NCBI RefSeq assembly: GCF_007830295.1
Contig: NZ_VLKC01000002.1
Location: 4,509,157-4,573,156 of the forward strand
Direction of reading: 5' to 3'
DNA from: Sporomusa sp. KB1
Lineage (GTDB): Bacteria > Bacillota > Negativicutes > Sporomusales > Sporomusaceae
DNA length: 64,000 nt
How positions within the stretch are numbered: the stretch's first letter is position 1; each line of letters starts with the position of its first letter. Shown one piece after another: positions 5,170 to 18,847 of this stretch. The notes beneath the pieces were generated by a model. It made no database searches, was not told the DNA's origin, and was given only the letters and a program-made list of their open reading frames with translations. The position numbers were made by a program, and so were the translations under genes.

Positions 5170-5215
5170 TGCACCTGTTTATATCAGCTATTGCAGATTT
5201 TTTAAAATAGAAAGT

Positions 5216-5512
5216 GCCATCAGAAGGACTAAATCCAGTAAGTGTATTATTCGGAGCCGTAATGATAATTCTGCTGTCATTGTGGGGCAGATTGGAGTGA
5301 AAGTGGCTCTCTGTCCAGGTAATTGCAGCTTTTGCGCTTTTGGTAAAAATCATACCCACTTTCAAAATAATAGAATCAGCGAGAATGAATTTATTACGAA
5401 AGTTACGGACTTTTGTAAAGAAGGAGACTTATATGGTCTATATTTAATGGCCATGCATGAATATGATCTCGATTTTTACTTAAAGATCATTCGCCAGCAA
5501 AAAAAATGGTAA
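5216..5512 (+). pseudogene. Remnant of a BioB-like radical-SAM gene
   Basis: Only the region around the radical-SAM cysteines survives: GQIGVKVALCPGNCSFCAFG aligns with the AQVGMDVGPCPKDCQFCSFA segment of the gene at 6874. In-frame similarity runs back to about 5240 (KCIIRSRNDNSA), but there is no credible start. After the cysteine motif the frame continues for about 55 residues (YGLYLMAMHEYDLDFYLKI matches the paralogue's IYLMATANYKFADYLEV) and then stops. The TIM-barrel rest is missing. It is the third and decayed member of a radical-SAM family in this window. Confidence 0.7.
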
Positions 5513-5538
5513 AAGCTTTGAAGAGTTTTCAAGTATTA

Positions 5539-5586
5539 ATTGCAAATAAATTTAATCTTGCAATTGATAAAATTTTACTATAAAAT
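5539..5586 (+). promoter_or_regulatory. ATTGCAA-N12-TTGCAAT operator/promoter, copy A
   Basis: The dyad ATTGCAA-N12-TTGCAAT occupies 5539-5564. Its right half supplies a -35 (TTGCAA, 5558-5563), placed 17 bp before TAAAAT (5581-5586). It lies just after the radical-SAM remnant and drives the decayed DUF4418 gene. The transcript would begin near AATAGTAG, as at copies C and D1. Confidence 0.7.
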
Positions 5587-5674
5587 AATAGTAGATCTGA
5601 AGCACAGCGTGAAACTGGAATGAAGGGAAGTTGATGCATACACAGTGGTTTCAAGCAATAAAGGAGGAAGAAAA

Positions 5675-6100
5675 CTGCAACATAAAAAACTGATACCGGG
5701 TATATGTCTCTTACTATCATTATGGCTCTTGGTAGTACCGTTCCTTTTTCCACCATGTGTTTCACAAGTTCACGGCATGGGGCATATGTCTTGCTGGTAT
5801 ACATAGCAATCTGAACCATTTAATGCAATTATGGCTGTCATTGTCAGCATCTACCTCATTTTTACATCAAGCTCTCAGGTAAAAAAGCATTGGGTCTGGT
5901 TTTGTGCATCTGTGGAATTATTGCCGCAGCACTACCCCAGTCGTGGGGACTCGGCATGTGTGTCAAAGATACTATGGCCTGTCATAAGACTTATCTGTAT
6001 ACAATGGGTGGGAGCGATTCCCCTGTTCTTATTAGGCATAAGTATTTTCTGCAAAAATTTTCGCAGTCATACACTGATTGACGAGGATGAAGATGAATGA
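5675..6100 (+). pseudogene. Decayed DUF4418 membrane protein gene
   Basis: Joining three stretches gives a DUF4418-like protein: a first hydrophobic segment (IPGICLLLSLWLLVVPFLF), HGMGHMSCWYT, a central segment (LGLVLCICGIIAAALP), the cysteine motif CVKDTMACH, and a last segment (IPLFLLGISIF). The gene is broken by a TAG at 5804 and by two frame changes, near 5885 and near 6010. A good Shine-Dalgarno (AAAGGAGG) now precedes CTG rather than ATG. Its TGA overlaps the ATG of the next fragment, as expected of a former operon with ABC transporter genes. Confidence 0.65.
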
Positions 6101-6219
6101 CTTTATTTCACATGATCCGCAGCAACCTTTTACATAGAAACTGCAAAATAGTATTGTTGTACATCGCTTCTTTTCCGCTTTTCCCCATCAACTTTCCGGT
6201 GGGATGGAACAACGTGTAG
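6097..6219 (+). pseudogene. N-terminal fragment of an ABC (FtsX/MacB-type) permease
   Basis: The ATG overlaps the DUF4418 stop (ATGA). The first 13-15 residues ([15 protein letters not shown]) look like the cytoplasmic start of FtsX/MacB-type permeases. The following sequence is unrelated and the frame stops at 6219. Permease and ATPase genes of this type commonly follow DUF4418 genes. The call rests on a short stretch. Confidence 0.4.
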
Positions 6220-6338
6220 CACTTGCCCGTGCCCTTGTAAATCATTCGAAAGCTTTGCTTTTGGATGAACCGTTGGGCGCTCTTGATGCCTTGACTCGCA
6301 TGAGCATGCAGGGTGAGATCCTGCGCATTTCGAACTGA
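6186..6338 (+). pseudogene. Fragment of an ABC transporter ATPase
   Basis: About 50 codons survive: the ABC signature ([16 protein letters not shown]), Walker B ([16 protein letters not shown]) and part of the D-loop. Walker A and the C-terminal half are absent and a TGA ends the frame. [12 protein letters not shown] is typical of nitrate/sulfonate/taurine importers (SsuB/TauB), so it probably comes from a different transporter than the permease fragment before it. Confidence 0.75.
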
Positions 6339-6372
6339 AAATGACGCTTAAAAATGGATTGCTGATAATGTC

Positions 6373-6430
6373 AATAGTGGTCTAAAACACTTGGCCAAGA
6401 CTGTAACATTGCAGATTTGCCCTATTTTTT
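6373..6430 (+). ncRNA. Attenuator-like leader, copy B
   Basis: This leader is related to those at 7969 and 9971. A 5' hairpin pairs GTGGTCT (6377-6383) with AGACTGT (6398-6404) around a 14-nt loop. The overlapping 3' part can form an imperfect hairpin with GCAGATTTGCCC, followed by six T (6425-6430). The two folds exclude each other. The sequence before it keeps only a GATAATG like the -10 of copy D1 and no dyad. The segment 6373-6516 is a near-duplicate in layout and length of 9971-10112. Confidence 0.55.
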
Positions 6431-6441
6431 TAGGCTTATGA

Positions 6442-6486
6442 ATTGCAAATGTATTTATTATTGCAATCGATATTTTAATATATACT
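6442..6486 (+). promoter_or_regulatory. ATTGCAA-N12-TTGCAAT operator, copy B
   Basis: A perfect dyad at 6442-6467, directly after the leader's T-run. The TATACT at 6481-6486 is only 14 bp from the right-hand TTGCAA, so promoter activity is doubtful here. A very good Shine-Dalgarno (GGAGGTGAT) and a GTG at 6505 follow. Confidence 0.6.
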
Positions 6487-6504
6487 GGCTTGGAGGTGAT
6501 AAAA

Positions 6505-6684
6505 GTGACAATCTTTCTGAGACGGGCTAACGCAGATATAGACGCTGAAAAATTGGCATCTGCCGTACTTCATCCGGAGGGATGTACAACTAAGCTCAAT
6601 CATTTGATTAGAATGGGAAATGTAAGCAATGGTGTTGACACTGAGCTTTGCACTGGGAATTGCGGGAACCACTTTTGCCGCTAG
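6505..6684 (+). CDS. Short ORF behind operator B, possibly a leader or fusion ORF
   Basis: GTG after GGAGGTGATAAAA opens a 59-codon frame (MTIFLRRANADIDAEKLASA, ending LCTGNCGNHFCR). The ribosome site and first codons match the frame at 10101 (MAIFDARR). The tail runs out of frame through a fragment of an S-layer-homology gene, so at least that part is not a natural protein end. I do not recognise the protein; the conserved start suggests a promoter-proximal segment copied with the leader. Confidence 0.35.
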   Translation: MTIFLRRANADIDAEKLASAVLHPEGCTTKLNHLIRMGNVSNGVDTELCTGNCGNHFCR

Positions 6685-6760
6685 CCCGTTTGCCGATGTG
6701 CCGGCGAAACACTGGGCCTATAACGCTGTGGACAGAACCAGGTACGCGCTCATTCTTTGA
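6629..6760 (+). pseudogene. N-terminal fragment of an SLH-domain (OmpM-like) protein
   Basis: This frame encodes a signal peptide core (MVLTLSFALGIAGTTFAAS) followed directly by the start of an S-layer homology domain (PFADVPAKHWAYNAVD). That is the typical beginning of the OmpM porins of Negativicutes, which link the outer membrane to peptidoglycan. Family resemblance ends after about 35 residues and a TGA follows at 6758. The basic signal-peptide start is also missing. It shows that gene debris of an outer-membrane type collected here. Confidence 0.65.
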
Positions 6761-6873
6761 GAGAATGGGCGGTGTACCTAAGCCCTCAATTGATTGATTG
6801 GGCCGACGAGATTGCGGGAGGGAGGATAAGAAAAAATTTGTCCAAATAAAAAATGACTGGAGGTTAATTAACC

Positions 6874-7875
6874 GTGAATAATCAAATTTCGCAGATTACT
6901 AATAAGGCGATCGACGGCGGCGAAATTACTGCCCTGGAACTACGCAGCTTACTTAACGTCGATTCACTGTCGGAAGAAGCCTATCTGATTCAATGCGCCG
7001 CACGCAAAGTCAGCGCCGCTGCTGCAAATGGAAAAGCTGAGGTATATGCCCAGGTAGGAATGGATGTTGGACCGTGCCCGAAAGACTGTCAATTTTGTTC
7101 TTTTGCGCCGGTCAATAAGGTTTTTCCTAAAGAAAAGGTTTACAGTCTGGAAGAGATTATTGAAAAATCGCTACGTTTTGAAGTCGATGGCGCCAACGCT
7201 ATATATCTTATGGCAACAGCCAATTACAAATTTGCTGATTATCTGGAAGTTACTAAAGAGGTAAGAGCGGCCTTAAAACCGAAAACTCCGATGGTTGCCA
7301 ACATTGACGATTTTGACGAAGACGAAGCCAGAGCACTGAAGAAGGCCGGTTTTGCCGGAGTCTACCATGTGATGCGGATGGGCGAAGGAATTGTTACCGG
7401 GATTGATCCGCAAGTGAGGGTAAGAACAATAACCGCAGCCCAAAAAGCAGGGTTGCTCGTGGGTGCCTGTGTTGAGCCGATAGGGCCGGAACACTCCATT
7501 GATGAAATTGTTGAAAAGGCCATGTTTATAAAGAAAATGAAGCTGGTACATGCCGGAGTGGGGCGGCGGTTAAAGATACCAGGATCGCCTTTGGCTATTC
7601 ATGGCATATTGACTGGAGTTCAGCAAGCCCACATTGTTGGAGCGGTTAAACTAGCAATGGGATATAGTATAGCTGGTCACGGCGCTGGGTGTGGATGCGA
7701 GGAACTTACAACTTTAGCCGGAGGGAACCTGTTGTGGGCCGAGTCCGGCTCTAATCCGCGGGATACCAAAGCCAATACGGTAATTGGTGGGACAGTGGCA
7801 AGCAAGCGGGAAATACTTCATGAAACCGGCTGGAAAATAGTCGACGGACCGTCGGTGCTATTTAGTCCAAGGTAG
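6874..7875 (+). CDS. BioB-like radical SAM protein
   Basis: A 333-residue radical-SAM enzyme. Cys68, Cys72 and Cys75 (CPKDCQFC) form the CX3CX2C site for the [4Fe-4S] cluster that cleaves S-adenosylmethionine. The size, a single TIM barrel and motifs such as NIDDFDEDEA and GACVEPIGPEH place it near biotin synthase and its uncharacterised relatives. The typical biotin synthase sequence around its second cluster is not recognisable, so I do not call it bioB. GTG start at 6874 with GGAGG 12-16 nt upstream. Two relatives lie at 5.2 and 16.6 kb. Operator copy C follows its stop. The substrate is unknown. Confidence 0.8.
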   Translation: MNNQISQITNKAIDGGEITALELRSLLNVDSLSEEAYLIQCAARKVSAAAANGKAEVYAQVGMDVGPCPKDCQFCSFAPVNKVFPKEKVYSLEEIIEKSLRFEVDGANAIYLMATANYKFADYLEVTKEVRAALKPKTPMVANIDDFDEDEARALKKAGFAGVYHVMRMGEGIVTGIDPQVRVRTITAAQKAGLLVGACVEPIGPEHSIDEIVEKAMFIKKMKLVHAGVGRRLKIPGSPLAIHGILTGVQQAHIVGAVKLAMGYSIAGHGAGCGCEELTTLAGGNLLWAESGSNPRDTKANTVIGGTVASKREILHETGWKIVDGPSVLFSPR

Positions 7876-7918
7876 AAAAGCAAGCTTTTAAGGAAACATC
7901 TTGAGCCACTTTATTTGA

Positions 7919-7966
7919 ATTGCATATAGATTTATATTTGCAATCGCAAATGCGTTGGTATATACT
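7919..7966 (+). promoter_or_regulatory. ATTGCAA-N12-TTGCAAT operator/promoter, copy C
   Basis: The dyad at 7919-7944 has one mismatch in the left arm (ATTGCAT). The right-arm TTGCAA (7938-7943) acts as -35, exactly 17 bp before TATACT (7961-7966). It drives the leader at 7969 and then the gene at 8116. Confidence 0.7.
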
Positions 7967-7968
7967 GG

Positions 7969-8030
7969 AATAGCAGTCTAAAACAAATGACAAGACTGCA
8001 ACATCGCTGATTTGCCCTATATTTATGGTT
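7969..8030 (+). ncRNA. Attenuator-like leader, copy C
   Basis: A perfect 7-bp hairpin (GCAGTCT 7973-7979 with AGACTGC 7993-7999, loop 13 nt) stands at the same place as in copies B and D but with different bases. The downstream hairpin with GATTTGCCC is weaker here than in copy D. A degenerate second dyad (ATTACAA at 8035) follows. Confidence 0.5.
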
Positions 8031-8115
8031 TAGCAATTACAAAATGTTTTAAATGAGTAGTCAGTTTGCGAGTATACTCAACCTCCGGGAACAATTATAT
8101 AAAGGGGGAAAAATT

Positions 8116-8541
8116 ATGTTTGCAAGAATCCATAATAAAAGCGATATTTTAGAAAACGGGAAAATTATGTTATTGACCGATAGTACACCAGGTTGCCGTA
8201 CACTAACTGATTTACAATATTTAGAACATACACTGCGTGAAGTGCTTGTGGAAACACATAAGAGCATTCAAGAAGCTATGGCGAATAATAACAACTTTAC
8301 GTTCAAAGCATATGTTGAAATTCTTTCATCTTTAACTGGTAACCTTAAAATTATTACAGAATCTATTCTTGCAGTTAAATCTTGTATACAGGCGAGTCGT
8401 GATAAGAATTCTGAGGCTCAAAAACCAGAAAAGTTACAGAAATATAGCGACTTTTTATCATATTCCGTACTAGCACTTTCAGAAACTGATATTTCTAGTA
8501 CGAACCTACGTGCACGAATTTTTGAATACCATGAGAAATAA
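8116..8541 (+). CDS. Hypothetical protein (141 aa)
   Basis: The ATG at 8116 follows AAAGGGGGAAA. The product is soluble and mostly helical by appearance, with no signal peptide or membrane segment and two cysteines (C33 and C96). The central part (LEHTLREVLVETHKSIQEAM, then LSSLTGNLKIITESILAVKSC) looks like amphipathic helices. I do not recognise a family. It is the first gene behind operator C and its attenuator, followed by a broken gene and arsM, so it may share that regulation. Its frame is open upstream to 8053, but there is no ribosome site there. Confidence 0.6.
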   Translation: MFARIHNKSDILENGKIMLLTDSTPGCRTLTDLQYLEHTLREVLVETHKSIQEAMANNNNFTFKAYVEILSSLTGNLKIITESILAVKSCIQASRDKNSEAQKPEKLQKYSDFLSYSVLALSETDISSTNLRARIFEYHEK

Positions 8542-8576
8542 GACACTCTTAAACATTTAGAAAAGAGGTGAGCATT

Positions 8577-8906
8577 TTGAACAGATGTTTGGCATTTACA
8601 AAAAAGCAGAGACAAATCAAGACGGAAGCCACGCAGAAATTTGCAAAGACAATAGAAGTAAATAAACGTATTGCAGTAAGAGCAGTCGCTGAAAATGGTG
8701 GGTTGCCACATTGGAAGGAAAATTTATGGTAAAAGCCGCCAATGCCCGTACTGTTATTAATATTAATTGCCATAGCAGGTGTGCTTTTTTTTGACATTAT
8801 AGAAACTTCTTACATTCCGCAGACCAATTATCTTAAATATCAAAACGGTCTTGATGACGTTGAACCGGCAAAAATGAAAAATAAGGCTCATAAAAAACAT
8901 TCTTGA
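8577..8906 (+). pseudogene. Small gene interrupted by an in-frame stop
   Basis: AAGAGGTGAGCAT precedes TTG at 8577. The first 51 codons end at TAA 8730-8732 (GGLPHWKENLW). The same frame then continues through a hydrophobic segment (MPVLLLILIAIAGVLFF, from 8742) to a basic tail ending at 8906. Read through, it would be a protein of about 109 residues with one membrane segment. As written it is either two small genes or one broken gene. A further frame at about 8880-8998 (IKNILEAGIAEIYVLVENVF) looks like another fragment. None is recognised. Confidence 0.4.
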
Positions 8907-9026
8907 GGCGGGAATAGCGGAAATATATGTATTGGTTGAAAATGTCTTTGCCTTGAGTATTTTGGAAGAAAAATATAATGGATGTGATTATAGACCATAA
9001 AAATAATAATTTAAGGAGGAAGACAA

Positions 9027-9809
9027 ATGCAAGATATTAGAGAAACTGTCAGGAAAAATTATGCGGAAAAAATCACCAACAAGGTTAATAGCTGTTGCGA
9101 CAATAGTCAACATTCTATTTCGAAAGACCTGTATTTGGTAGACAATTTAGAAAATTTAGATCTTGCACTCATTGCCACTTCTTTTGGGTGTGGAAATCCA
9201 ACTGCTTTGGCCCACTTAAATCAGGGTGAAGTTGTCTTGGATTTAGGAAGCGGCGCCGGGCTGGATGTATTGCTGGCTGCCAAGCTAGTTGGCCCAAAGG
9301 GCAAAGTTTATGGACTGGATATGACCGATGAGATGCTGCTAGTTGCTAAGGAAAACCAGAAAAAGGCTAACATTGCCAATGCAGAGTTTTTAAAAGGGCA
9401 CATCGAGGATATTCCTTTGCCTGACAATACAGTTGATGTTGTTATCTCTAACTGTGTTATTAATCTCAGTGGTAATAAAAATGAAGTTATAAAGGAAGCT
9501 TTTCGGGTATTAAAACATGGTGGAAGATTTGCTGTTTCTGATATTGTACTTAAAAAGCCGCTTCCAGAAAAAATTGCGAAGGATATTTTAGCTTGGGCAG
9601 GCTGCATTGCTGGAGCACTTTTAGAAGAAGAGTACAAAAATATACTAACTGCTGCAGGTTTTGTGGAAATTGATATTGAAGTGACACGGGAATTGGATTT
9701 CACGAAACAAAATTTTAAAAATTTAATTGACGGCCTATCCTTAACTGAGAGGACGGAACTTAAAAGCTCAATTGTTAGTGCTTTTGTAAGCGGTATTAAA
9801 CCTTGCTGA
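9027..9809 (+). CDS. arsM: ArsM-like arsenite (metalloid) methyltransferase
   Basis: A 260-residue class I SAM methyltransferase of the arsenite methyltransferase family. Motif I is [11 protein letters not shown] (70-80). The family cysteines are present in FGCGNPTAL (C55), SNCVINLS (C143) and AGCIAGAL (C193), and an N-terminal CC pair (C23/C24) is seen in many bacterial ArsMs. The family transfers methyl groups from SAM to As(III) in the cytosol. AAGGAGG precedes the ATG. No arsR, arsB or arsC is nearby, so another metalloid or a moonlighting role remains possible. It lies behind operator C. Confidence 0.85.
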
Positions 9810-9897
9810 CTATGACCAAATGCTTTTGCAAATGAATCCAGATGATGTTGCTCAAATGGGGCTAAAAGATGGATTAGACCTGGTTGGTTATTTCTAA
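9808..9897 (+). pseudogene. Remnant of a molybdopterin-dinucleotide-binding (FwdD/FdhF-tail-like) domain
   Basis: The frame overlapping the arsM stop reads [22 protein letters not shown], the pattern NP-D-..-G(I/L)KDGD found where molybdopterin oxidoreductase C-terminal domains and FwdD-type subunits bind the cofactor. It stops after 29 codons and has no start of its own. It may be debris of a second Mo/W enzyme gene. Confidence 0.45.
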
Positions 9898-9919
9898 TAA
9901 TATAGAACATTTACTTATA

Positions 9920-9967
9920 ATTGCAAATTGTTTTATTCTTGCAATTATAAATATGGTGTTATATAAT
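9920..9967 (+). promoter_or_regulatory. ATTGCAA-N12-TTGCAAT operator/promoter, copy D1
   Basis: A perfect dyad at 9920-9945. The right-arm TTGCAA (9939-9944) lies exactly 17 bp before a perfect TATAAT (9962-9967). It is the best promoter of the set and stands about 300 bp before the molybdopterin oxidoreductase operon. Confidence 0.78.
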
Positions 9968-9970
9968 GGC

Positions 9971-10027
9971 AATAGTGGTTGAAGCACGTAGCAGAACTGT
10001 AAAATACGCAGTTTTGCTCTTATTTTT
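9971..10027 (+). ncRNA. Attenuator-like leader, copy D
   Basis: The expected transcript starts near 9971. Hairpin 1 pairs GTGGTT (9975-9980) with AACTGT (9995-10000). Hairpin 2 pairs GCAGAACTG (9991-9999) with CAGTTTTGC (10009-10017) and is followed by TCTTATTTTTA, a plausible intrinsic terminator. Both use 9995-9999, so they exclude each other, the layout of a transcription attenuator. No ligand is evident. Confidence 0.6.
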
Positions 10028-10036
10028 AGTCTTATG

Positions 10037-10062
10037 ATTGCAAAATGATTGAATGATGCAAT
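10037..10062 (+). promoter_or_regulatory. ATTGCAA-N12-TTGCAAT operator, copy D2
   Basis: Directly behind the copy D terminator stands a second dyad (ATTGCAA-N12-ATGCAAT, one mismatch). TATATTTC at about 10075 is a poor -10. The pair D1/D2 flanks the attenuator; the layout recurs at B, where the upstream dyad is lost. Confidence 0.6.
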
Positions 10063-10100
10063 TTGGCTTTCAGTATATTTCTGCTTTTGAGGTGATAAAA

Positions 10101-10259
10101 GTGGCAATCTTTGATGCAAGGAGACAGGTTTGTGTTACCACTGAGGGATCAAAGCATGGACTACCAATCAGAATGGCCTGTTTAACACGTTGGGGGCCTG
10201 TCGGTGTTGTTCGACGGCAAACAAATGAACTATTATTATGTAAGAAAAAGGAGCAGTGA
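10101..10259 (+). CDS. Short ORF (52 aa) before the Mo-enzyme operon, possible leader peptide
   Basis: GTG follows TGAGGTGATAAAA and opens MAIFDARRQVCVTT, ending at 10259 four nt before the next ATG. The ribosome site and first codons match the frame at 6505 behind operator B. Its 3' end carries the AAGGAG that serves the next gene, so it could couple translation. It could also be the copied start of an unrelated gene. Not recognised. Confidence 0.35.
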   Translation: MAIFDARRQVCVTTEGSKHGLPIRMACLTRWGPVGVVRRQTNELLLCKKKEQ

Positions 10260-10263
10260 TTGC

Positions 10264-12468
10264 ATGAGCAACCTATTTAAACCAGGATGTAAAATGACCC
10301 GCCGGACATTTTTAGCAGGATCAGTGGCAATGGGAGCGAGCTTGACTCTTTTTGGATTGCTTGATCGTATGACAGCCGAGGCCAGTGGAATAAAAACCGG
10401 TGAGTCAGGCATTCTATCCTATCAGGCATGTCCGCGTAACTGCCATGATACCTGTACCCTAATATCAAAAGTAGTTGATGGAAGAATCGTGAACATTACC
10501 GGCGATCCCACCCATCCAATTACCGCCGGGACACCTTGTGTGAAGGGACATTGTTATCCTACTTGGGTCTACCACCCTGACCGAATTCTTTATCCGATGA
10601 AGCGGGCCGGCAAAAAAGGCGAAGGCAACTGGGAACGGATTTCCTGGGACGAGGCATACAGCACCATAACAGATAAATTTAAAGCAATTATTGAAAGTGA
10701 TGGTGCCAAAGCCATTCTACCTTATAGCTATTCCGGCAATCTTGGGATTGTTAACAACTACGGGGGGCCCAATCGTTTTTGGAATAAGCTGGGTGCCAGT
10801 AAGCTGGATCGCGCGGTGTGCGCCGGTGCAGGTAGTGTTGCAACAAATTATACTTATGGTCAGGTTGGGAGTATTGATCCGGAAACATATTCTAAAACCA
10901 AACTTTTCGTTTCCTGGGGCGTTAACCATACTGCGACTAATGTTCATATCATTAAATTCATCAACCGGGCACGGGACAACGGGGCCAAACTGGTGGAAAT
11001 TAACCCAGTACGGACACCACTGGGTTCCCAGGCTGACATACATATTCAACCAAAGCCGGGAACGGATGCTGCATTGGCCTTGGGTATTATGAACGTTATC
11101 ATTAATGAAGGTCTATATGACAAAAGTTTTGTGGAAAACTACACTTTGGGTTTTGATAAGTTGGTGGAAAAGGTACAGAACTATCCGGTAGAGCAGGTGG
11201 AGCAAATAACTGGCGTACCTGCCGCTACAATAGTTGAATTTGCCAGATTATATGCGACAACCAAGCCGTCTATCATTCGGGTTGGCTATGGCATGCAACG
11301 TAGTTCCAATGGTGGCCGGATGGTGCGCGCTATTTCTCTGTTGCCCGCACTGGTAGGCATGGTAGGCGTTGATGGCGGAGGCTATATCTACATCAATGGC
11401 GATTATTGGGCGTACGATTGGAAAGCCCTTCAAAGACCCGATTTACTGGCTGATAGCAAGGTACGCTCTATCAACATGAATGAAATCGGTAAGGCCCTTA
11501 ATGGACAAACCAAAGAAACGGAAGGTATGCCAGTTAAGGCGCTCTTTGTGTACAATAGTAATCCCTTGGCCATGTCTACTAATACCAATCAGATCAAACA
11601 AGGCTTAGAACGTGAAGATTTATTTACTGTTGTTGTCGATCCCTTTATTACCGACACAGGCGATTATGCCGATATTCTTCTGCCTGCGGCCACCTTTTTT
11701 GAATATGAAGATATAAACTCCGACTATCTCGGCTGGTATGTACGGCTCAATCAACCGGCCATTCCGGCCCTTGGCGAGAGTAAATCCAATTTAGAGATAT
11801 TCGCTGAATTGGCCAATCGAATGGGCTTTACTGAGCCATGCTTTGGCGATACTGCTGCCGACATTATCAAAGCAGGCTTAAAATCCGGTAGCCCTCTGTT
11901 TGAAGGCATAACTTATGAAACCCTTAAAGACAAGCATTGGATGAAACTTAAACTGGATATACCTTTTGCTGACCGGAAATTTAAAACACCCTCCGGCAAG
12001 ATTGAATTTTATTCTGAAGCCTTAGGCAAGGCCGGTTTTGATCCGGTGGCTGAACATGTGCCACCGGCTGAAGGTTCGGAAGAAACTCCTGAATTGTATA
12101 ATAAATATCCCCTCCATTTTTTGACCCCGGCCACCAAGCATTTTATTACCACTCAGTTTCACAATCTGCCGTATATACAGGAAATTTACGATGGCCCATT
12201 AGTCTATATCAATCCTAAAGATGCTGAAGATAGGGGGATCGAGAGTGGCGACTGGGTTTACGCCTTTAATGATCGCGGTAAGGTTAAGCTGAAAGTTAGA
12301 GTAACCGAAGGAGTAAAACCGGGGGTAGCCATGTCGCCTAAAGCTCCGTGGCAAAAACTGAGCCCAGGGAAAACCAATGTCAACGCCCTGGCGCCTGACA
12401 GACTAGGCGATATGGGAGGCGTATCGACGTATCATACCAATCTTGTACAAGTTGCCAAAAAGATATAG
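10264..12468 (+). CDS. Tat-exported molybdopterin oxidoreductase, catalytic subunit (DMSO reductase superfamily)
   Basis: A 734-residue enzyme with a twin-arginine signal (MTRRTFLAGSVAMGASLTLF, residues 12-31). An N-terminal [4Fe-4S] site (C56-X3-C60-X3-C64-X27-C92) is followed by the bis-MGD domains and a C-terminal dinucleotide-binding domain. DRAVCAGAG offers Cys186 where the metal ligand is expected. Cysteine ligation would group it with polysulfide/thiosulfate/arsenate-type enzymes rather than serine-ligated DMSO reductases; that is inference. The ATG at 10264 is chosen for the AAGGAG at 10248. It heads a five-gene operon with no membrane-anchor subunit. Substrate unknown; a sulfur compound is my favoured guess because of the rhodanese. 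Confidence 0.85.
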   Translation: MSNLFKPGCKMTRRTFLAGSVAMGASLTLFGLLDRMTAEASGIKTGESGILSYQACPRNCHDTCTLISKVVDGRIVNITGDPTHPITAGTPCVKGHCYPTWVYHPDRILYPMKRAGKKGEGNWERISWDEAYSTITDKFKAIIESDGAKAILPYSYSGNLGIVNNYGGPNRFWNKLGASKLDRAVCAGAGSVATNYTYGQVGSIDPETYSKTKLFVSWGVNHTATNVHIIKFINRARDNGAKLVEINPVRTPLGSQADIHIQPKPGTDAALALGIMNVIINEGLYDKSFVENYTLGFDKLVEKVQNYPVEQVEQITGVPAATIVEFARLYATTKPSIIRVGYGMQRSSNGGRMVRAISLLPALVGMVGVDGGGYIYINGDYWAYDWKALQRPDLLADSKVRSINMNEIGKALNGQTKETEGMPVKALFVYNSNPLAMSTNTNQIKQGLEREDLFTVVVDPFITDTGDYADILLPAATFFEYEDINSDYLGWYVRLNQPAIPALGESKSNLEIFAELANRMGFTEPCFGDTAADIIKAGLKSGSPLFEGITYETLKDKHWMKLKLDIPFADRKFKTPSGKIEFYSEALGKAGFDPVAEHVPPAEGSEETPELYNKYPLHFLTPATKHFITTQFHNLPYIQEIYDGPLVYINPKDAEDRGIESGDWVYAFNDRGKVKLKVRVTEGVKPGVAMSPKAPWQKLSPGKTNVNALAPDRLGDMGGVSTYHTNLVQVAKKI

Positions 12469-12494
12469 TATCCGGATAAATGGAGGAGAAATAA

Positions 12495-13034
12495 ATGGGA
12501 AAACAAGTAGGCTTCTATTATAATCAAAACTACTGTATTGGGTGTCAGGCCTGTGAAACTGCCTGCAAAAATAAGAACAAGCTGGACGTCGGGATTCGAT
12601 GGCGTGTGGTTGAGCATTCTGAAACTACCGTTAACGGGCGTCAGGTTGACCGATATTTTACCCATGCCTGCATGCATTGTGAAAAACCGGCCTGTGTTGC
12701 CACCTGTCCGGTGAAAGCCTATAGTAAGCGGGCAAAAGATGGTATCGTAGTACAGGATTATGAAAAATGTGTGGGCTGTGGGGCCTGTGTCAATGCTTGT
12801 CCCTATAAAGCGGTTAGTTTTAGCCGTAAGAAATTAAAGGCATCGAAATGCAACTTGTGCTTAGATTACCTGCAGCAAGGTGAGGCTCCGGCCTGTGTCC
12901 GCGGCTGTCCGTTACAGGTGTTGAAAGCAGGGACGATAAGTGCTATGGATAAGGAAGGGGCCGTAAAGGAATGTAAGGGCTTCTTGCAAACAGGCTCCGG
13001 CCCATCCATCCGCTTTGCCCCTGAGAAAAGGTAG
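12495..13034 (+). CDS. DmsB/PsrB-type 4Fe-4S electron transfer subunit
   Basis: A 179-residue ferredoxin-like subunit with the four cysteine clusters of DmsB/PsrB: CIGCQACETAC (res 14-24), CMHC...CVATCP, CVGCGACVNACP and a last group (CNLC...CVRGCP). It would pass electrons to the Mo subunit. It has no signal peptide, as usual for subunits exported together with a Tat-bearing partner. It begins 26 nt after the catalytic gene, with TGGAGGAG before the ATG. The usual third partner (DmsC/NrfD-type quinol anchor) does not follow. Confidence 0.9.
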   Translation: MGKQVGFYYNQNYCIGCQACETACKNKNKLDVGIRWRVVEHSETTVNGRQVDRYFTHACMHCEKPACVATCPVKAYSKRAKDGIVVQDYEKCVGCGACVNACPYKAVSFSRKKLKASKCNLCLDYLQQGEAPACVRGCPLQVLKAGTISAMDKEGAVKECKGFLQTGSGPSIRFAPEKR

Positions 13035-13045
13035 GATAAAGCACA

Positions 13046-13732
13046 ATGTACCCAAAAAATGTGGTTAGCGACACTTTTAGCGAGCTTGCTGAAATGTTGC
13101 TAGAGCGCGGCTGTGTGTATGAAATGCTGCGGAGATTGTTTTTGTTTGGGCCGACTGTCGGATTAGTAACAGAATTGATTGAATTGTCGTCTGCTTATCA
13201 AGAGGAAGATGCGGTGGAGTGCCCAGCAGGAGAAAGAGAATGGGTTGGTTTTTTACAAACCCTGCAGCCTGATTTGGCTGAGGCACTGGTTCAAAAATTG
13301 CAGCCGGAATTTACCCGGCTTTTCATTGGGCCCCGTCACTTGCCTGCTCCGCCTTACGAATCGGTTTACAGATCGGCGGAGCGTGTCTTGATGCAAGCAA
13401 TAACCATTGAAGTTCGGGAGAAATACCGGGATGCCGGTCTTGAGGTGAAAAACCTAAATCATGAACCTGACGATCATATCGGTTTGGAATTAGAATTCAT
13501 GTACTACCTTAATAGAAAAGCGTTAGAAGCTTTAACGCGAGGCGACGTACCTGCCATGCTCGCGGCACTCGATGCACAAAGCCGCTTTCTCACTGGGCAC
13601 CTGAGCCAATGGGTTTCGACTTTTTGTGATGATATCGCAGGCAATACCTGTCAAGAGTTTTTCCGGTATATGGCAGAATTCCTAAAAGGATTCATTATGG
13701 AGGACTGCGAGCAGGTAAGACGATTCATATAG
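13046..13732 (+). CDS. TorD/DmsD-family Mo-enzyme chaperone
   Basis: A 228-residue all-helical cytosolic protein with the family core LNHEPDDHIGLELEFM at about residues 138-153 and the upstream FTRLFIGPRHLPAPPYESVY motif. These chaperones bind the Tat signal of the matching molybdoenzyme and hold it until the cofactor is inserted. It starts 11 nt after the Fe-S subunit. Its presence supports the idea that the operon's Mo enzyme is folded inside and exported. Confidence 0.88.
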   Translation: MYPKNVVSDTFSELAEMLLERGCVYEMLRRLFLFGPTVGLVTELIELSSAYQEEDAVECPAGEREWVGFLQTLQPDLAEALVQKLQPEFTRLFIGPRHLPAPPYESVYRSAERVLMQAITIEVREKYRDAGLEVKNLNHEPDDHIGLELEFMYYLNRKALEALTRGDVPAMLAALDAQSRFLTGHLSQWVSTFCDDIAGNTCQEFFRYMAEFLKGFIMEDCEQVRRFI

Positions 13733-13798
13733 ACTGGACGAGAAATCTTAGAAGACGCAACATGATGCGCAGTTAATCATACAGGAGGTTAAGTACAG

Positions 13799-14767
13799 AT
13801 GCCAAGAAGAAAAAGTATTTGCACAAAAACGATTTTTGTTAGCCTGCTTGTGGCGATTTTTGTGAGCATATCATTATGTCCGCAGATTTTTGGCGCTACC
13901 GCGAACGCCAATGCTGCAGACTCCAGAAATCAGGGGTTTATTAACAAGGATTCACTGATAACCCCTATAAAATTGAACGACTTAATGAAGGACAGAACCG
14001 TCAAAATAATTGATGTAAGGTCACCGGAACGCTATCAGAAAGAACATCTTCCCGAGGCCGTGAATACATGGTGGAAAGACTACGAGGATGAAAAAGGTCT
14101 GATCCCGTCACCCGAGCGTTTTGCTGCTTTGCTAAGTAAACTGGGGATTAATAATAAAGATACCATTGTGCTCTATGCCGATTCTGATAAGCATGGCCCG
14201 GCGTATGTGGCTCACTTTTGGTGGCTGCTTGATATGTTTGGTTATCATAACGTGAAAATGTTGGATGGTGGTTTGGAAGCTTGGCAGGCTTCAGGGTATA
14301 AATTGTCTAACGAGATTTCGAAAGTTGACTCCGGCAATTTCCGGTTAACTAGGATAGATACTAGTAAATTGGCGACAACGGAAGAAGTTTGGACTGCCGT
14401 AAAAAAGCATGATTCCAATGTGATTATTTTGGATGTCAGGGAATGGGAAGAATTCTCGGGTAGCATACAGGCCCCAGGCGCAGTGAGAAAGGGCCGAATT
14501 CCCGGGGCCGTTTGGCTATACTGGGGAGATGTGCTAAATCCGGATAAAACGCTCAAAAATGCCGGCGAGTTGCGAAAAATATTCACTGCAAAGGGAATTA
14601 CTCCGGGCAAGACGGTCATTACCTATTGCCAGGCCGGAGTTCGTGCCGCACATACTGCTTATGTGCTGAGTGAGGTTCTCGGCTACAAAAACGTGAAAAA
14701 CTATGCCGGGTCGTGGATCGAATGGAGTCAACGAGAGGAACTGCCGATAGAGATTGATGGGCAATAG
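13799..14767 (+). CDS. Exported two-domain rhodanese (thiosulfate sulfurtransferase-like)
   Basis: 322 residues with a Sec-type signal peptide (basic MPRRK, then a hydrophobic core, probable cleavage near residues 33-41). Two rhodanese domains follow. The first (about 50-165) has YADSDKHG where the active loop should carry cysteine, so it is inactive. The second (about 175-315) has C277 in TYCQAGVRAAH. The family moves sulfane sulfur from thiosulfate or polysulfide. AGGAGG precedes the ATG. Sitting between a Mo enzyme with its chaperone and a hydrogenase-like gene, it suggests sulfur chemistry outside the cytoplasmic membrane. Confidence 0.88.
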   Translation: MPRRKSICTKTIFVSLLVAIFVSISLCPQIFGATANANAADSRNQGFINKDSLITPIKLNDLMKDRTVKIIDVRSPERYQKEHLPEAVNTWWKDYEDEKGLIPSPERFAALLSKLGINNKDTIVLYADSDKHGPAYVAHFWWLLDMFGYHNVKMLDGGLEAWQASGYKLSNEISKVDSGNFRLTRIDTSKLATTEEVWTAVKKHDSNVIILDVREWEEFSGSIQAPGAVRKGRIPGAVWLYWGDVLNPDKTLKNAGELRKIFTAKGITPGKTVITYCQAGVRAAHTAYVLSEVLGYKNVKNYAGSWIEWSQREELPIEIDGQ

Positions 14768-14775
14768 GAAAGCTG

Positions 14776-16290
14776 ATGGAAAATTGGACTACACGTTTTA
14801 CCAAAGCAAAAATGACACGACGCAGTTTTTTAAAATTCATTGGCGGCGCGAGTCTTGGCAGTATGGCTGTCACAATAGTAGCCTGCAGTACGGAAGCGGC
14901 AGAAGGCCGTGTTCCCATCGATCCCGATAATCCATCCATTGTTCGTGATGATCAGAAATGCATCCTCTGTGGCCAATGTTTGGAAGCTTGTGAGAAGGTC
15001 CAATCTGTCTATGGATATTATGATCTTCCCATTAAAAAGAATATTATTTGTGTCAATTGCGGACAGTGCAGCTTGTGGTGCCCTACGGCAGCAATTACCG
15101 AACGGGACGACATTGATAAAGTTGTTGCAGCTCTTGAAAATAAGGATATCCATGTTGTTGTTCAGACCGCTCCAGCTACGCGAGTTGCCTTAGGCGAAGA
15201 ATTTGGATTGGTGCCAGGTAGCATTGTTGAAGGACAACAAGTGGCGGCATTAAGAGAACTGGGATTTTCGGCCGTATTTGACACGAACTATAGCGCAGAT
15301 CTCACTATTATGGAAGAAGGAACGGAACTGGTTAAACGTATCCAAGGCATGAAAGACTTCCCGTTGCCACAGTTTACTTCTTGTAGTCCCGGTTGGGTCA
15401 AATTCTGTGAATATTATTATAGCGATTTGATTCCGCATCTTTCCACAGCTAAGTCGCCGCAGCAAATGCTGGGCGCTCTTGTCAAAACCTACTATGCCAA
15501 AGAAAAAGGGATTGCTCCCGAAAAGATCATTTCTGTTGCTATTATGCCATGTACAGCTAAAAAATTTGAATGTCTACGTCCGGAAATGAATTCTGCTGGC
15601 GTGTTACACGGCAAACCGCAGATTCGCGATGTAGATATTGTATTAACGACGCGGGAGCTGGCTCGTTTAATGAAACGAAAGGGCCTCGATCTTAATGCCC
15701 TAGAGGATGCAGCGTATGACCGTATCATGGGTGAAGGCACTGGCGCAGGCGTTATTTTCGGTACCACAGGTGGTGTTATGGAAGCCGCCGTGCGCAGTGC
15801 CTATTATCTTATTACCCATGAGGACCCACCTGAAACATTGTTAAATCTTGCTCCAGTGCGTGGATTACAGGGCGTAAAGGAAGCTACGGTAACTATTCCG
15901 GGTGTCGGACCGTTTTCTGTAGCTGTTTGCCATGGCCTCAAAAATTCCCGGGTTATTTTAGATGAAATCCAAGCCGGAAAATCGCGCTGGCAGTTCATCG
16001 AATTTATGTCCTGTCCAGGCGGTTGTGCTGGGGGTGGAGGACAACCCCGTACTTCCCTTCAACCATCAGATGAAGTGCGTCAGGCACGTATCGCCAGTCT
16101 CTACCGTCTGGATGGGAAAATCTACAAAAAACGTCTGAGCTATCAAAATCAGAAAGTGCAAGCTCTCTATCAGAACTACTTGGACCATCCCATGAGCGAA
16201 CTGGCTGAAAAACTGCTTCATACGCATTACACCGATCGGAGCAAAGAGTTGTCAGTTAAAAGAAAGTTTATAAAGAGAGATACAACATGA
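14776..16290 (+). CDS. Tat-exported [FeFe]-hydrogenase-like protein
   Basis: 504 residues. A twin-arginine signal (MTRRSFLKF, residues 13-21) ends in a lipobox-like IVAC (C37). Two [4Fe-4S] motifs follow (C62/65/68/72 and C92/95/98/102). The H-cluster domain shows L1 TSCSPGW (201-207), L2 MPCTAKKFE (257-265) and L3 FMSCPGGCAGGGGQP with C413 and C417. A small-subunit-like tail follows. The family interconverts H2 and protons. In the usual L1 (TSCCPGW) the residue before proline binds the cubane; here it is Ser204. It starts 9 nt after the rhodanese and ends the operon. No hydEFG maturases are in view. Confidence 0.85.
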   Translation: MENWTTRFTKAKMTRRSFLKFIGGASLGSMAVTIVACSTEAAEGRVPIDPDNPSIVRDDQKCILCGQCLEACEKVQSVYGYYDLPIKKNIICVNCGQCSLWCPTAAITERDDIDKVVAALENKDIHVVVQTAPATRVALGEEFGLVPGSIVEGQQVAALRELGFSAVFDTNYSADLTIMEEGTELVKRIQGMKDFPLPQFTSCSPGWVKFCEYYYSDLIPHLSTAKSPQQMLGALVKTYYAKEKGIAPEKIISVAIMPCTAKKFECLRPEMNSAGVLHGKPQIRDVDIVLTTRELARLMKRKGLDLNALEDAAYDRIMGEGTGAGVIFGTTGGVMEAAVRSAYYLITHEDPPETLLNLAPVRGLQGVKEATVTIPGVGPFSVAVCHGLKNSRVILDEIQAGKSRWQFIEFMSCPGGCAGGGGQPRTSLQPSDEVRQARIASLYRLDGKIYKKRLSYQNQKVQALYQNYLDHPMSELAEKLLHTHYTDRSKELSVKRKFIKRDTT

Positions 16291-16453
16291 AATGATCATG
16301 TCGAAAAGCTTGATAATTAAGCCTTTTTTCAAAATTCCACTCCAACAGGGAACTAACTACCACAATTAGCAGGTGTCCTTATTTACATGTTTAGGTATTA
16401 CTCTACAAAGGTTACCCATCAAGGATCGGGTAGAAACAAGGTGATTAGTTAAG

Positions 16454-16513
16454 AAGAGCTAACGATTGCGATATAATTCAATATTGCAATCGTTAGCTCT
16501 TTTATTATATAAT
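16454..16513 (+). promoter_or_regulatory. ATTGCAA-N12-TTGCAAT operator/promoter, copy E, fused with a terminator hairpin
   Basis: Positions 16454-16469 and 16486-16501 form a perfect 16-bp stem followed by TTTATT, a good terminator for the operon upstream. The same bases contain the dyad (ATTGCGA-N12-TTGCAAT, 16465-16490), whose right TTGCAA acts as -35 for TATAAT at 16508-16513 (18 bp). One element thus ends one operon and starts the radical-SAM gene. The rest of 16291-16616 holds only a weak hairpin with a T-run (16304-16328). Confidence 0.65.
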
Positions 16514-16615
16514 GGATATATGTATGAAAGACAGGAAAATGTGGACCATCATTTCATCAATGTCATGTTATTGGGGAAATAACGTAAATTTTCAAAAGAA
16601 CGGAGTACATAAGAA

Positions 16616-17536
16616 ATGGATATAAATATTGCTCAAGTTATTCAAAAGGCTGTGGATGGCGGTGAACTCAACGCATCAGAGTTACGCCAGTTGTTTAGTG
16701 TATATTATCTTTCTGAAGAAGCATATATGATTCAACATGCTTCAAGGAGACTCAGTAGCGCTACTTCAAAGGGAAAGGCGGAAGTTCATGGTCAGGTGGG
16801 AATTGATGTTGGACCATGTCTCAAGAACTGCGATTTTTGTTCTTTTGCAATCAAAAATAAGATTTTTCATGAACCCAAGGTACATGCATTGGAGGATATT
16901 ATTGAAAAATGCCTTGAATTTGAGAATGCGGGTGCTAATGCAGTTTATCTCATGGCAACGGCTGCTGTTAACATCCATGAATTCATTAAAATGGGGAAAG
17001 AAGTGAAAGCTTCATTAAAAACAGAAATTCCCCTTGTAGCAAACATTGACGATTTCGATGAAGATGGAGCAAAGGCACTTAAAAAAGCCGGATTTGCCGG
17101 CATTTATCATTGTGTACGCATTGGAGAGGGAACAATTACGGACATTGATCCTAAGGTGCGGATAAAAACAATTCATGCGGCACAAAAAGCAGGTCTGCTA
17201 TTAGGAACAAGCGTAGGTCCGGTAGGACCGGAACATACGCTTGATGAACTAGTGGAAACCACAATATTAACCAGAAGCCTGAAACCGATAAATAACGCCT
17301 CATGCCGTCGTATCAACATCCCCGGTTTACCGCTCACCGCCCATGGATCGATGAATTACGGACAAATGGCGCATGTTCTTGCGGTAATCCGGTTAGCCAG
17401 CGGCTATAACATCATTGGTCACGGTACACATGAACCGAATGGCATAGGGGCTATGGCCGGAGCTAACCTTTTTTGGGCTGAGCAAGGTGCAAATCAAGAG
17501 ATACCAGTGAACAAACAGTTAGAGGATGGACCGTGA
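16616..17536 (+). CDS. BioB-like radical SAM protein, 3' end frameshifted
   Basis: A paralogue of the gene at 6874, collinear with it throughout, with Cys68, Cys72 and Cys75 at identical positions (CLKNCDFC). The frame ends at 17536 after 306 residues. In the -1 frame the missing tail continues from about 17525 to a stop at 17610 (KEAGWDILQGPSVMFGC, matching HETGWKIVDGPSVLFSPR of the paralogue). I see no slippery site, so a recent mutation or a sequencing error is more likely than programmed frameshifting. The catalytic core is intact. It has its own operator/promoter E. Confidence 0.75.
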   Translation: MDINIAQVIQKAVDGGELNASELRQLFSVYYLSEEAYMIQHASRRLSSATSKGKAEVHGQVGIDVGPCLKNCDFCSFAIKNKIFHEPKVHALEDIIEKCLEFENAGANAVYLMATAAVNIHEFIKMGKEVKASLKTEIPLVANIDDFDEDGAKALKKAGFAGIYHCVRIGEGTITDIDPKVRIKTIHAAQKAGLLLGTSVGPVGPEHTLDELVETTILTRSLKPINNASCRRINIPGLPLTAHGSMNYGQMAHVLAVIRLASGYNIIGHGTHEPNGIGAMAGANLFWAEQGANQEIPVNKQLEDGP

Positions 17537-17832
17537 AACGAACGCAAACAGTGTTCAAAGAAGCTGGCTGGGATATATTGCAAGGTCCTTCGGTAATGTT
17601 TGGTTGTTAATATTCTAATGAATGACGAAGAGGTTGTCAAAGACAGGGGGATGGTGGTAGTGTCTTGAATCAAACAGCCGTAGACCGAAATATATTTATC
17701 AAAGAATTAAAAAAAGAGGTTTATCTATACGGCGGACATCTAGAGTGAGTGGTGTAAGTAAAGGGATTATTGAAAGAATAAAGACATTACCACTGTCCGT
17801 GTATCCCTTCATAAAAATTTTGGCATTTAGGG

Positions 17833-17861
17833 TTGACATCTCTCTCTAAATTGGGTACAAT
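17833..17861 (+). promoter_or_regulatory. Sigma-A promoter of the tRNA-Pro gene
   Basis: A consensus TTGACA (17833-17838) and TACAAT (17856-17861) with 17-bp spacing. The stretch 17611-17832 before it holds only a 27-codon frame (TTG at about 17665, NQTAVDRNIFIKELKKEVYL) that I do not recognise. Confidence 0.85.
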
Positions 17862-17919
17862 GAATTTTGTCAGTCAGATACTAGACGCAGCAGTTGCCAA
17901 TGGCTGGAGACAAGAATAT

Positions 17920-17996
17920 CGGGGCGTAGCGCAGTTTGGTAGCGCATTAGTCTGGGGGACTAAGGGTCGCAGGTTCAAATCCTGTCGCTCCGACCA
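17920..17996 (+). tRNA. tRNA-Pro (anticodon GGG)
   Basis: The acceptor stem CGGGGCG pairs with CGCTCCG, and the T-loop is GGTTCAAAT. The anticodon stem TTAGT/ACTAA encloses the loop CTGGGGG, giving anticodon GGG for proline codon CCC. The CCA end is encoded (17994-17996). A strong promoter precedes it and a terminator follows. Confidence 0.95.
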
Positions 17997-18006
17997 AAAA
18001 AGTTTT

Positions 18007-18034
18007 GGGATTCCATCTTGGAATCCCTTCTTTA
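18007..18034 (+). terminator. Terminator after tRNA-Pro
   Basis: A perfect 8-bp stem (GGGATTCC/GGAATCCC, loop ATCTT) followed by TTCTTT. Confidence 0.85.
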
Positions 18035-18071
18035 TAACATGATAGTAAAATCCTTGGCTTCTATGCCGTTA

Positions 18072-18110
18072 TCCTACTCTTTTGACCGAGGGTAGGAGTT
18101 TTTGGTTTTT
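18072..18110 (+). terminator. Terminator-like hairpin before queC
   Basis: TCCTACTC pairs with GAGGGTAGGA (two-base bulge) and is followed by a T-rich run. It could be a second terminator of the tRNA transcript or an expression platform for queC. I cannot find a preQ1 aptamer in front of it. Confidence 0.5.
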
Positions 18111-18187
18111 TACTGTCACTTTTGACCATTCTTAGTATTTGAGCAGAAGAAAGTAACCCAACTAAGCATACCAGGGGGTAAAAATTA

Positions 18188-18847
18188 ATGTCAAAAGCAG
18201 CGCTAGTAGTCTTCAGTGGTGGACAAGACAGCACTACATGTCTGTTCTGGGCAATGCAACACTTTGATAAAGTGGAAGCGATTACGTTTAACTATAACCA
18301 AAGACATAAACAGGAGATAGAGTGTGCTACTACTATTGCCAATGAATTTAAGATACCTCATATGGTTTTAGACATGAGCTTGCTGAATCAGTTGGCTCCT
18401 AATGCGCTAACCAGAAGTGATATCGAAATAAAAGCCGGTGAAAACGGACAACTACCTACAACATTTGTAGATGGTCGTAATTTACTCTTCCTGTCATTTG
18501 CAGCAGTAGCCGCCAAACAAAAGCAGATTCGTCATATTGTTACAGGGGTTTGTGAGACTGATTTTAGTGGTTATCCCGACTGCCGTGACGTTTTTGTCAA
18601 ATCAATGAATGTTACTTTAAATCTGGCAATGGACTACCCGTTTGTCATTCATACTCCCTTGATGTGGATAGATAAGGCCGATACCTGGGCGTTAGCCGAT
18701 AGCTTAGGTAAATTGGAGTACATTCGTCAGAATACACTTACCTGTTATAATGGCATCATGGGAGACGGGTGTGGCGAATGTCCCGCATGTAAACTACGGA
18801 ATGCTGGTTTGAAAAAATATCTTGAAACAAAGGCAGGCAAACAATAA
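18188..18847 (+). CDS. queC: 7-cyano-7-deazaguanine synthase
   Basis: QueC makes preQ0 from 7-carboxy-7-deazaguanine, ammonia and ATP in queuosine synthesis. The PP-loop SGGQDS (residues 9-14) is the adenylation site. The C-terminal zinc motif [10 protein letters not shown] is intact, with an upstream cysteine (TCYNG). At 219 residues it has the usual length. A GGGGG-type Shine-Dalgarno precedes the ATG. It is followed after 46 nt by queE, a typical pair; queD and queF are not in the window. Confidence 0.96.

Follow-up and report, generated by a model that had tools for sequence, protein, structure and literature searches.

Molybdenum (Mo) reductases of the dimethyl sulfoxide (DMSO) reductase superfamily usually receive quinol electrons via a dedicated membrane subunit or a cytochrome donor. 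We analysed here a five-gene operon in a 64,000-nucleotide stretch of the Sporomusa sp. KB1 genome (this whole stretch is called the window; the host genome, G000, measures 6.06 Mb). At window positions 10264-16290 it encodes a Mo or tungsten (Mo/W) oxidoreductase, an iron-sulfur (Fe-S) subunit, a TorD/DmsD-type chaperone, a tandem rhodanese and an [FeFe] hydrogenase, with no NrfD/DmsC/PsrC-type anchor gene among the five. The explanation that we retain as the best one, with a probability of about 0.4, is a quinone-independent, H2-driven reduction of a metalloid or sulfane substrate in the periplasm. The Mo module has no anchor and the hydrogenase next to it lacks its quinone module as well; driving periplasmic chemistry directly with H2 in this manner would be unusual.

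These properties recall parts of several described systems. SrrABCDEF, the respiratory selenite reductase of Bacillus selenitireducens MLS10 (operon content in PMC12481199), is alike in its twin-arginine translocation (Tat)-exported Mo subunit of ~80 kDa, small four-cluster Fe-S subunit, TorD-type chaperone, rhodanese(s) and Cys-type ligand, whereas the window operon lacks the SrrC anchor, has one rhodanese instead of two rhodanese-region genes and adds an [FeFe] hydrogenase. Judged by operon composition, the Mo, Fe-S, TorD and rhodanese genes thus resemble SrrABDE, and the hydrogenase and the missing anchor are the new parts. Membership in the SrrABCDEF gene set itself was rejected, the anchor being absent from the operon and the remaining components present. 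An earlier note on this DNA, made from the sequence, knew of no described complex of this composition; this holds for the hydrogenase and the missing anchor but not for the other four genes.

The Psr/Phs/Dms-type complex iron-sulfur molybdoenzymes share with the operon the catalytic Mo subunit, the DmsB/PsrB-type subunit and the TorD chaperone. They differ by their NrfD/DmsC subunit, and the window Mo subunit, whose best family matches are DmsA, Fdh and PhsA, stays below every curated NCBIfam cut-off; an NCBIfam model for SrrA was not among its matches. ArrAB and PcrAB are anchorless periplasmic heterodimers of a Mo and an Fe-S subunit and offer a precedent for such a pair; their electrons come from CymA or c-type cytochromes, whereas the pair studied here is co-encoded with a hydrogenase. 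Finally, the hydrogen-dependent CO2 reductase (HDCR; 7qv7) also brings a Mo/W subunit, Fe-S proteins and an [FeFe] hydrogenase into a single chain that needs no quinone, but it is cytoplasmic, formate-specific and equipped with the formate dehydrogenase His that the window Mo subunit does not have.

Organization of the operon

Protein families were assigned by Pfam and NCBIfam searches, signal peptides by motif reading of the sequence, and genome-wide checks of G000 were made by targeted searches. The operon and its borders comprise the following features.

9990..10018, + strand: terminator-like hairpin in the interval between arsM and the operon, 11-pair stem followed by a T run
10264..12468, + strand: Mo/W subunit gene, 734 amino acids (aa), PF00384/PF01568/PF04879 (Molybdopterin, Molydop_binding, Molybdop_Fe4S4)
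12495..13034, + strand: Fe-S subunit gene, DmsB/PsrB-type with 4x[4Fe-4S], 179 aa, PF13247 (Fer4_11)
13046..13732, + strand: TorD/DmsD-type chaperone gene, 228 aa, PF02613 (Nitrate_red_del), 117.7 bits
13799..14767, + strand: tandem rhodanese gene, PF00581 in two stretches, Sec signal
14776..16290, + strand: [FeFe] hydrogenase gene, group A, PF02906 (Fe_hyd_lg_C) at 306 bits, PF02256 (Fe_hyd_SSU), TIGR02512
16454..16501, + strand: terminator-like hairpin closing the operon, 20-pair stem followed by a T run

The five genes lie on the same strand with gaps of 26, 11, 66 and 8 bp. Because of these short gaps and the bounding hairpins, the structure is operon-like, and the genes are probably co-transcribed as one unit. 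The Mo gene begins at the ATG at 10264, with AAGGAG ten bases 5', within an open frame that itself runs from a GTG at 10204. Upstream of the operon, Rfam revealed no RNA element, its sole match being a tRNA. The gene content, the Tat signals on the Mo subunit and on the hydrogenase, the Sec signal on the rhodanese and the TorD chaperone agree with the earlier description.

A hydrogenase separated from HybA and HybB

The last gene had been described as 'hydrogenase-like'. The family stood, but the wording was too weak, since the protein passes the group A model (TIGR02512, 479.5 bits against a cut-off of 405.95) and is, by family, a true group A [FeFe] hydrogenase. It contains the H-cluster domain, two accessory [4Fe-4S] clusters and the small-subunit domain, with a conserved Cys pattern. 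Three of its positions matter here.

14812..14886, + strand: Tat signal and lipobox (MTRRSFLK...TIVAC), read from sequence; the lipobox is kept in relatives
14884..14910, + strand: site of the missing linker; no GGxGW(L/M)PxQYQ...WPxQV segment separates the lipid Cys from GRVPIDP as it does in relatives
15376..15390, + strand: H-cluster motif L1, TSCSP, in which Ser replaces the cubane-ligand Cys of TSCCP

The L2 and L3 motifs are intact. A special H-cluster was considered because of TSCSP and rejected, the same motif being found in many relatives and in the cytoplasmic HydA copies of the same genome.

The closest relatives of the hydrogenase are Tat lipoproteins in G027 (82% identity) and G015 (81%); behind each of these genes lie those for a HybA-like Fe-S protein and a HybB/NrfD-like membrane protein. 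In the sample of the phylum, 29 genomes matched the hydrogenase, and outside G000 nearly all matches belong to this Hyd-HybA-HybB arrangement. In the tree, the window protein falls inside the Hyd-HybA-HybB clade, as sister to G027 (99/92) and next to G015 (100/99); its separation from HybAB is therefore derived. A member of this type is known from Desulfotomaculum gibsoniae, where the three genes Desgi_0926-0928 encode an [FeFe] hydrogenase that is associated with the membrane and carries a Tat motif (PMC4148979). The window hydrogenase is alike in family, in being a Tat lipoprotein and in its H-cluster domain with fused small-subunit domain. It differs in that the operon encodes neither HybA nor HybB, a HybB query found no match in G000 and the linker is gone. 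For these reasons the Hyd-HybA-HybB complex was rejected as its identity, and only descent from that family is retained.

The linker, a segment of the form GGxGW(L/M)PxQY...WPxQVRGR located between the lipid Cys and the first Fe-S motif, is present in all 24 relatives of the N-terminal alignment (in one of them degenerate) and absent from the window hydrogenase. With it, eight positions are gone that at least 14 of 15 relatives conserve, while outside the linker and the signal the protein departs at only five conserved positions. In G111, a hydrogenase without adjacent HybAB keeps the linker, and that genome has HybAB at another locus. We suppose that HybA/HybB dock through the linker and that the window protein could do without it. 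This segment, kept in HybAB-linked hydrogenases, is a candidate docking element.

No anchor in the operon and none to spare in the genome

The genome of Sporomusa sp. KB1 has three NrfD genes, each within its own Mo operon: one in a PhsABC locus at about 1.00 Mb, whose PhsA scores 1006 bits against a cut-off of 694, a second, at 0.80 Mb, in a Mo operon of the cytoplasmic type, and a third with an 897-aa Mo enzyme and NapGH-like genes at 0.20 Mb. The absence of the usual anchor, claimed earlier for the operon, thus extends to a genome with neither an unassigned NrfD nor a HybB homologue. Toward both ends of the second contig of this genome (839 kb) lie stretches that look identical to each other and contain a Mo oxidoreductase gene (G000:C2:30000-46000 and C2:732000-748000; L048 and L049), either a duplication or an assembly artefact.

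Since the hydrogenase derives from the Hyd-HybA-HybB family, in a genome without HybB, and has lost the linker, a direct chain from H2 through the Fe-S subunit to the Mo enzyme becomes more plausible. This hydrogenase-to-Mo step is proposed as the reading with the best support. Of the soluble or lipoprotein-tethered chain that the earlier note had imagined, the anchorless and extracytoplasmic character and the tether, located on the hydrogenase, are retained; conservation of the five-gene set is not supported.

The Mo/W subunit and its relatives

The first gene product is an exported Mo/W-bis(pyranopterin guanine dinucleotide) oxidoreductase of the DMSO-reductase superfamily, with a predicted Cys ligand.

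10294..10383, + strand: Tat signal of the Mo subunit, MTRRTFLAGSVAMGASLTLFGLLDRMTAEA, no lipobox Cys, read from sequence
10819..10821, + strand: Cys186 (734-aa numbering), predicted Mo/W ligand, aligned with the ligand Cys of acetylene hydratase and PsrA

The signal has an RRTFLAG motif and an Ala-x-Ala site. A lipobox Cys is present in the Mo relatives partnered with NrfD and absent from the window and G006 proteins, and the sequences support the hydrogenase as the probable bearer of the only lipid tether in the arrangement.

The ligand position is a Cys in 28 of 28 aligned homologues. Compared with G006 and G025, the window protein carries private substitutions near the ligand loop (V168G, F170N, S187A, D188G, K191S, P192V, K195N); six of 34 private changes fall in a stretch of 20 residues around the ligand (permutation p 0.026, three sequences tried), a suggestive clustering that hints at an altered pocket. 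The AlphaFold model (predicted local distance difference test score 88.8) matches the MopB fold over its full length. Its structural matches (formate dehydrogenases, Z 39.8; NapA, 38.6; acetylene hydratase, 37.0; ArrA, 36.1) do not separate the subfamilies. By sequence, acetylene hydratase is the top PDB match of the subunit.

Several identities were tried and rejected for this subunit. DMSO and trimethylamine N-oxide reductases (DmsA, DorA, TorA) have Ser where all these homologues have Cys, and dmsA_ynfE gives 357 bits against 777.7. The thiosulfate reductase PhsA model gives 272.8 bits, far from its cut-off and from the score of the real PhsA of this genome. ArrA gives 90.5 bits against 1600, a result that does not by itself exclude an arsenic substrate. 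Acetylene hydratase is a cytoplasmic, single-subunit enzyme, whereas the present protein is exported by the Tat system and shares its operon with an Fe-S subunit and a chaperone.

The same kinds of parts are found in HDCR, namely a Mo/W subunit, an Fe-S protein and an [FeFe] hydrogenase; HDCR FdhF and HydA2 appear among the PDB matches, and formate dehydrogenases head the structural matches. The operon could thus encode a periplasmic relative of HDCR or formate hydrogenlyase, in which a Mo/W formate dehydrogenase is coupled to the hydrogenase. Yet formate dehydrogenases have a His right behind their Cys/Sec ligand (CH in 7qv7), a position that is Ala in the window subunit and never His in the 28 homologues, Fdh-alpha reaches 316 bits against a cut-off of 666, and the gene context is one of arsenic and not of C1 metabolism. 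We consider this the least probable of the explanations examined, and formate dehydrogenase or HDCR was rejected as the identity of the subunit.

MopB lineages that have a Cys ligand but no name, and whose best hits resemble acetylene hydratase, Psr and Dms, have been described (PMC10100899, section 8). The window subunit fits them, although those are metagenomic branches without an assigned operon or function. The organoarsenic neighbourhood described below gives such a lineage a concrete candidate class of substrates.

Fe-S subunit and rhodanese

The Fe-S subunit matches TIGR02951 at 147.5 bits, under the cut-off of 214.1, and has no signal peptide, as expected of a Tat hitchhiker. In the rhodanese, the second domain carries the active site CQAGVR with its Cys intact. 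This protein is 56% identical to the rhodanese of the G006 operon and 83% identical to one in G004, where the gene adjoins an ArsS-like gene. The G004 copy (L172:2947-4861, G004:C50) begins 11 bp past that gene and has no signal peptide.

An organoarsenic neighbourhood

Genes on both sides of the operon recall arsenic metabolism.

6874..7875, + strand: BioB-like radical S-adenosylmethionine protein 1, PF04055; homologues adjoin ArsS
9027..9809, + strand: arsM, arsenite methyltransferase, NF008823 at 320 bits, cut-off 263
16616..17536, + strand: BioB-like radical S-adenosylmethionine protein 2, PF04055

BioB-like homologues stand beside ArsS in G025, G013, G020, G023 and G027. In G006, whose Mo enzyme is likewise Tat-exported, a packed run contains ArsS, an ATP-binding cassette (ABC) transporter, a BioB-like protein, the Mo, Fe-S and TorD genes, ArsM, an aquaporin and the rhodanese (L042, G006:C1:3211000-3230000), with ArsS at 411 bits (cut-off 300) and an arsenosugar-type ArsM at 528.8 bits (cut-off 400). 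This recurring association with ArsM, ArsS and BioB-like proteins thus indicates arsenic or a related metalloid. It points to the substrate of the Mo enzyme by gene context, without being proof. It also locates such an enzyme next to ArsM/ArsS genes in acetogens, a group whose arsenic redox steps are poorly known. DMSO and thiosulfate, proposed earlier as acceptors to try, lose ground in this setting, given the Cys ligand in place of Ser and the real PhsABC elsewhere.

A third BioB-like paralogue lies at G000:C1:4213831-4214820. These paralogues score under the biotin synthase cut-off, and their homologues are found in Sporomusaceae beside ArsS and SsuA-like ABC transporters; possibly, they represent an undescribed organoarsenic enzyme. 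Between the first BioB-like gene and arsM, a frame of 162 aa (window 8053-8541) has no Pfam or NCBIfam match.

A rhodanese near SrrA has been taken as a marker of selenite reduction (PMC8528874). Because of this marker and the Srr-like composition of the operon, selenite remains a strong second candidate. The exported tandem rhodanese with its intact active-site Cys, together with a Cys-ligated Mo centre that fits the PsrA/PhsA/SrrA group and a PhsA match of 272.8 bits, could also speak for a role in sulfur metabolism, as an H2-linked polysulfide, thiosulfate or sulfur reductase to which the rhodanese would deliver sulfane sulfur, in line with the earlier note. That PhsA score remains far below 694, however, a true PhsABC exists in the genome, and the context is organoarsenic, down to the rhodanese's closest homologue outside the operon, which adjoins an ArsS-like gene. 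A sulfur role of this kind appears quite unlikely to us.

Distribution and origin of the block

The five-gene order, whose conservation the earlier note had suggested looking for, was found in no second genome, the genomes covered being 380 of Negativicutes, a sample of 398 from the phylum and 28 from the order. In every relative found the genes are not linked, an outcome that the earlier note had named as a ground for refutation. Among the 380 Negativicutes, close Mo orthologues are restricted to G006, of the same genus (81%), and G025, of the same order (77%); farther ones (55%) are in G401 and G441, and named genome contigs, when searched with this protein, gave only distant relatives (26-33%). 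In G025, which has the closest orthologue outside the genus, the operon is Mo-FeS-TorD-NrfD and hence anchored; in G401 and G441 it is Mo-FeS-TorD-NrfD-NrfD with an FMN (flavin mononucleotide)-binding protein. From these comparisons the operon is a new assembly of a Mo-FeS-TorD set known with NrfD, an organoarsenic-type rhodanese and a hydrogenase of the kind found with HybAB.

The corresponding locus of G007 and G008 keeps tRNA-Pro, and most genes on its flanks (YbaK, QueC, QueE, PyrF) are 92-99% identical, but the gap between YbaK and QueC is about 3-3.6 kb and has other contents. The 10.7-kb block (6.9 to 17.5 kb of the window) is therefore species-specific among those examined. The interval from ybaK to tRNA-Pro/queC (window 5170-18190) varies in content in three Sporomusa species and is a probable insertion hot-spot.

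This distribution, with the block missing from two sister species and the combination from every other genome examined, would also suit a chance or decaying arrangement, in which the hydrogenase landed in a variable hot-spot beside a tRNA gene and is functionally unconnected with the Mo enzyme. All frames are nevertheless intact, the body of the hydrogenase is conserved, with five unusual positions outside linker and signal, and the gaps of 8-66 bp with bounding hairpins resemble a working operon. Such an accident seems very improbable.

A proposed function and its main rival

We propose that the Mo/W protein, the Fe-S subunit and the chaperone represent an SrrABD/PsrAB-like reductase minus its NrfD subunit, and that the hydrogenase, parted from HybA/HybB and having lost its linker, would serve it in a complex outside the inner membrane. 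The lipid-tethered hydrogenase would oxidise H2 in the periplasm, and its two accessory [4Fe-4S] clusters would relay the electrons to the Fe-S subunit with its four clusters, from which they would reach the Mo/W centre. There, a metalloid or metalloid-sulfur oxyanion would be reduced, an arsenic species being the first candidate and selenite the second, while the rhodanese would take care of sulfane sulfur or of a thio-bound product. With H2 oxidation and acceptor reduction both periplasmic, no energy would be conserved by a quinone loop. The role would therefore lie less in respiration than in detoxification or in providing an ArsM/ArsS-type pathway with a reduced (e.g. trivalent) metalloid. 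A more precise version, in which the HybAB quinone module has been swapped for a Mo-FeS reductase of arsenate, thioarsenate or methylarsenate, making a lipid-tethered H2:metalloid oxidoreductase tied to ArsM/ArsS-type organoarsenic metabolism, is rather doubtful in all its details.

Several observations weigh against this proposal. Sporomusa ovata has the quinol dehydrogenases NapC, NapGH and NrfH (PMC12780646), and NapGH-like genes exist in G000 (L046). The anchorless Mo-FeS-TorD-rhodanese set also exists in G006, but with no hydrogenase, and must there be able to draw on a different donor. Anchored and anchorless orthologues of the Fe-S subunit differ by no indel, so that this subunit shows no sign of having adapted to a new partner; the structure model of the hydrogenase is poor in its Fe-S domain. 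Selection for a joint function rests on a single case. Moreover, arsM is set apart from the operon by a terminator-like hairpin, and an arsM neighbour alone is no proof of arsenic chemistry.

The first two of these points support the main rival, in which the Mo-FeS pair is an anchorless reductase fed by menaquinol via a NapGH/NapC/NrfH-type dehydrogenase, as ArrAB is by CymA, and the hydrogenase is merely co-transcribed and feeds, for example, a HydC cytochrome b. Two HydAB loci with cytochrome b are indeed present in G000. On the other hand, a hydrogenase deprived of HybAB and of the linker now lies 8 bp behind the rhodanese, and no dedicated donor gene is found inside the block. All in all, we regard a quinol donor as somewhat unlikely in the case of Sporomusa sp. 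KB1.

Other observations

Elsewhere in the window, positions 23140-23811 hold a fragment resembling the C-terminal part of a serine recombinase, on sequence evidence only. A class D beta-lactamase-like gene with an STFK motif and a signal peptide was noted at 41240-42040, and a similar beta-lactamase-like gene (L102:15720-16574) occurs in G027, a few kb away from its Hyd-HybA-HybB genes.

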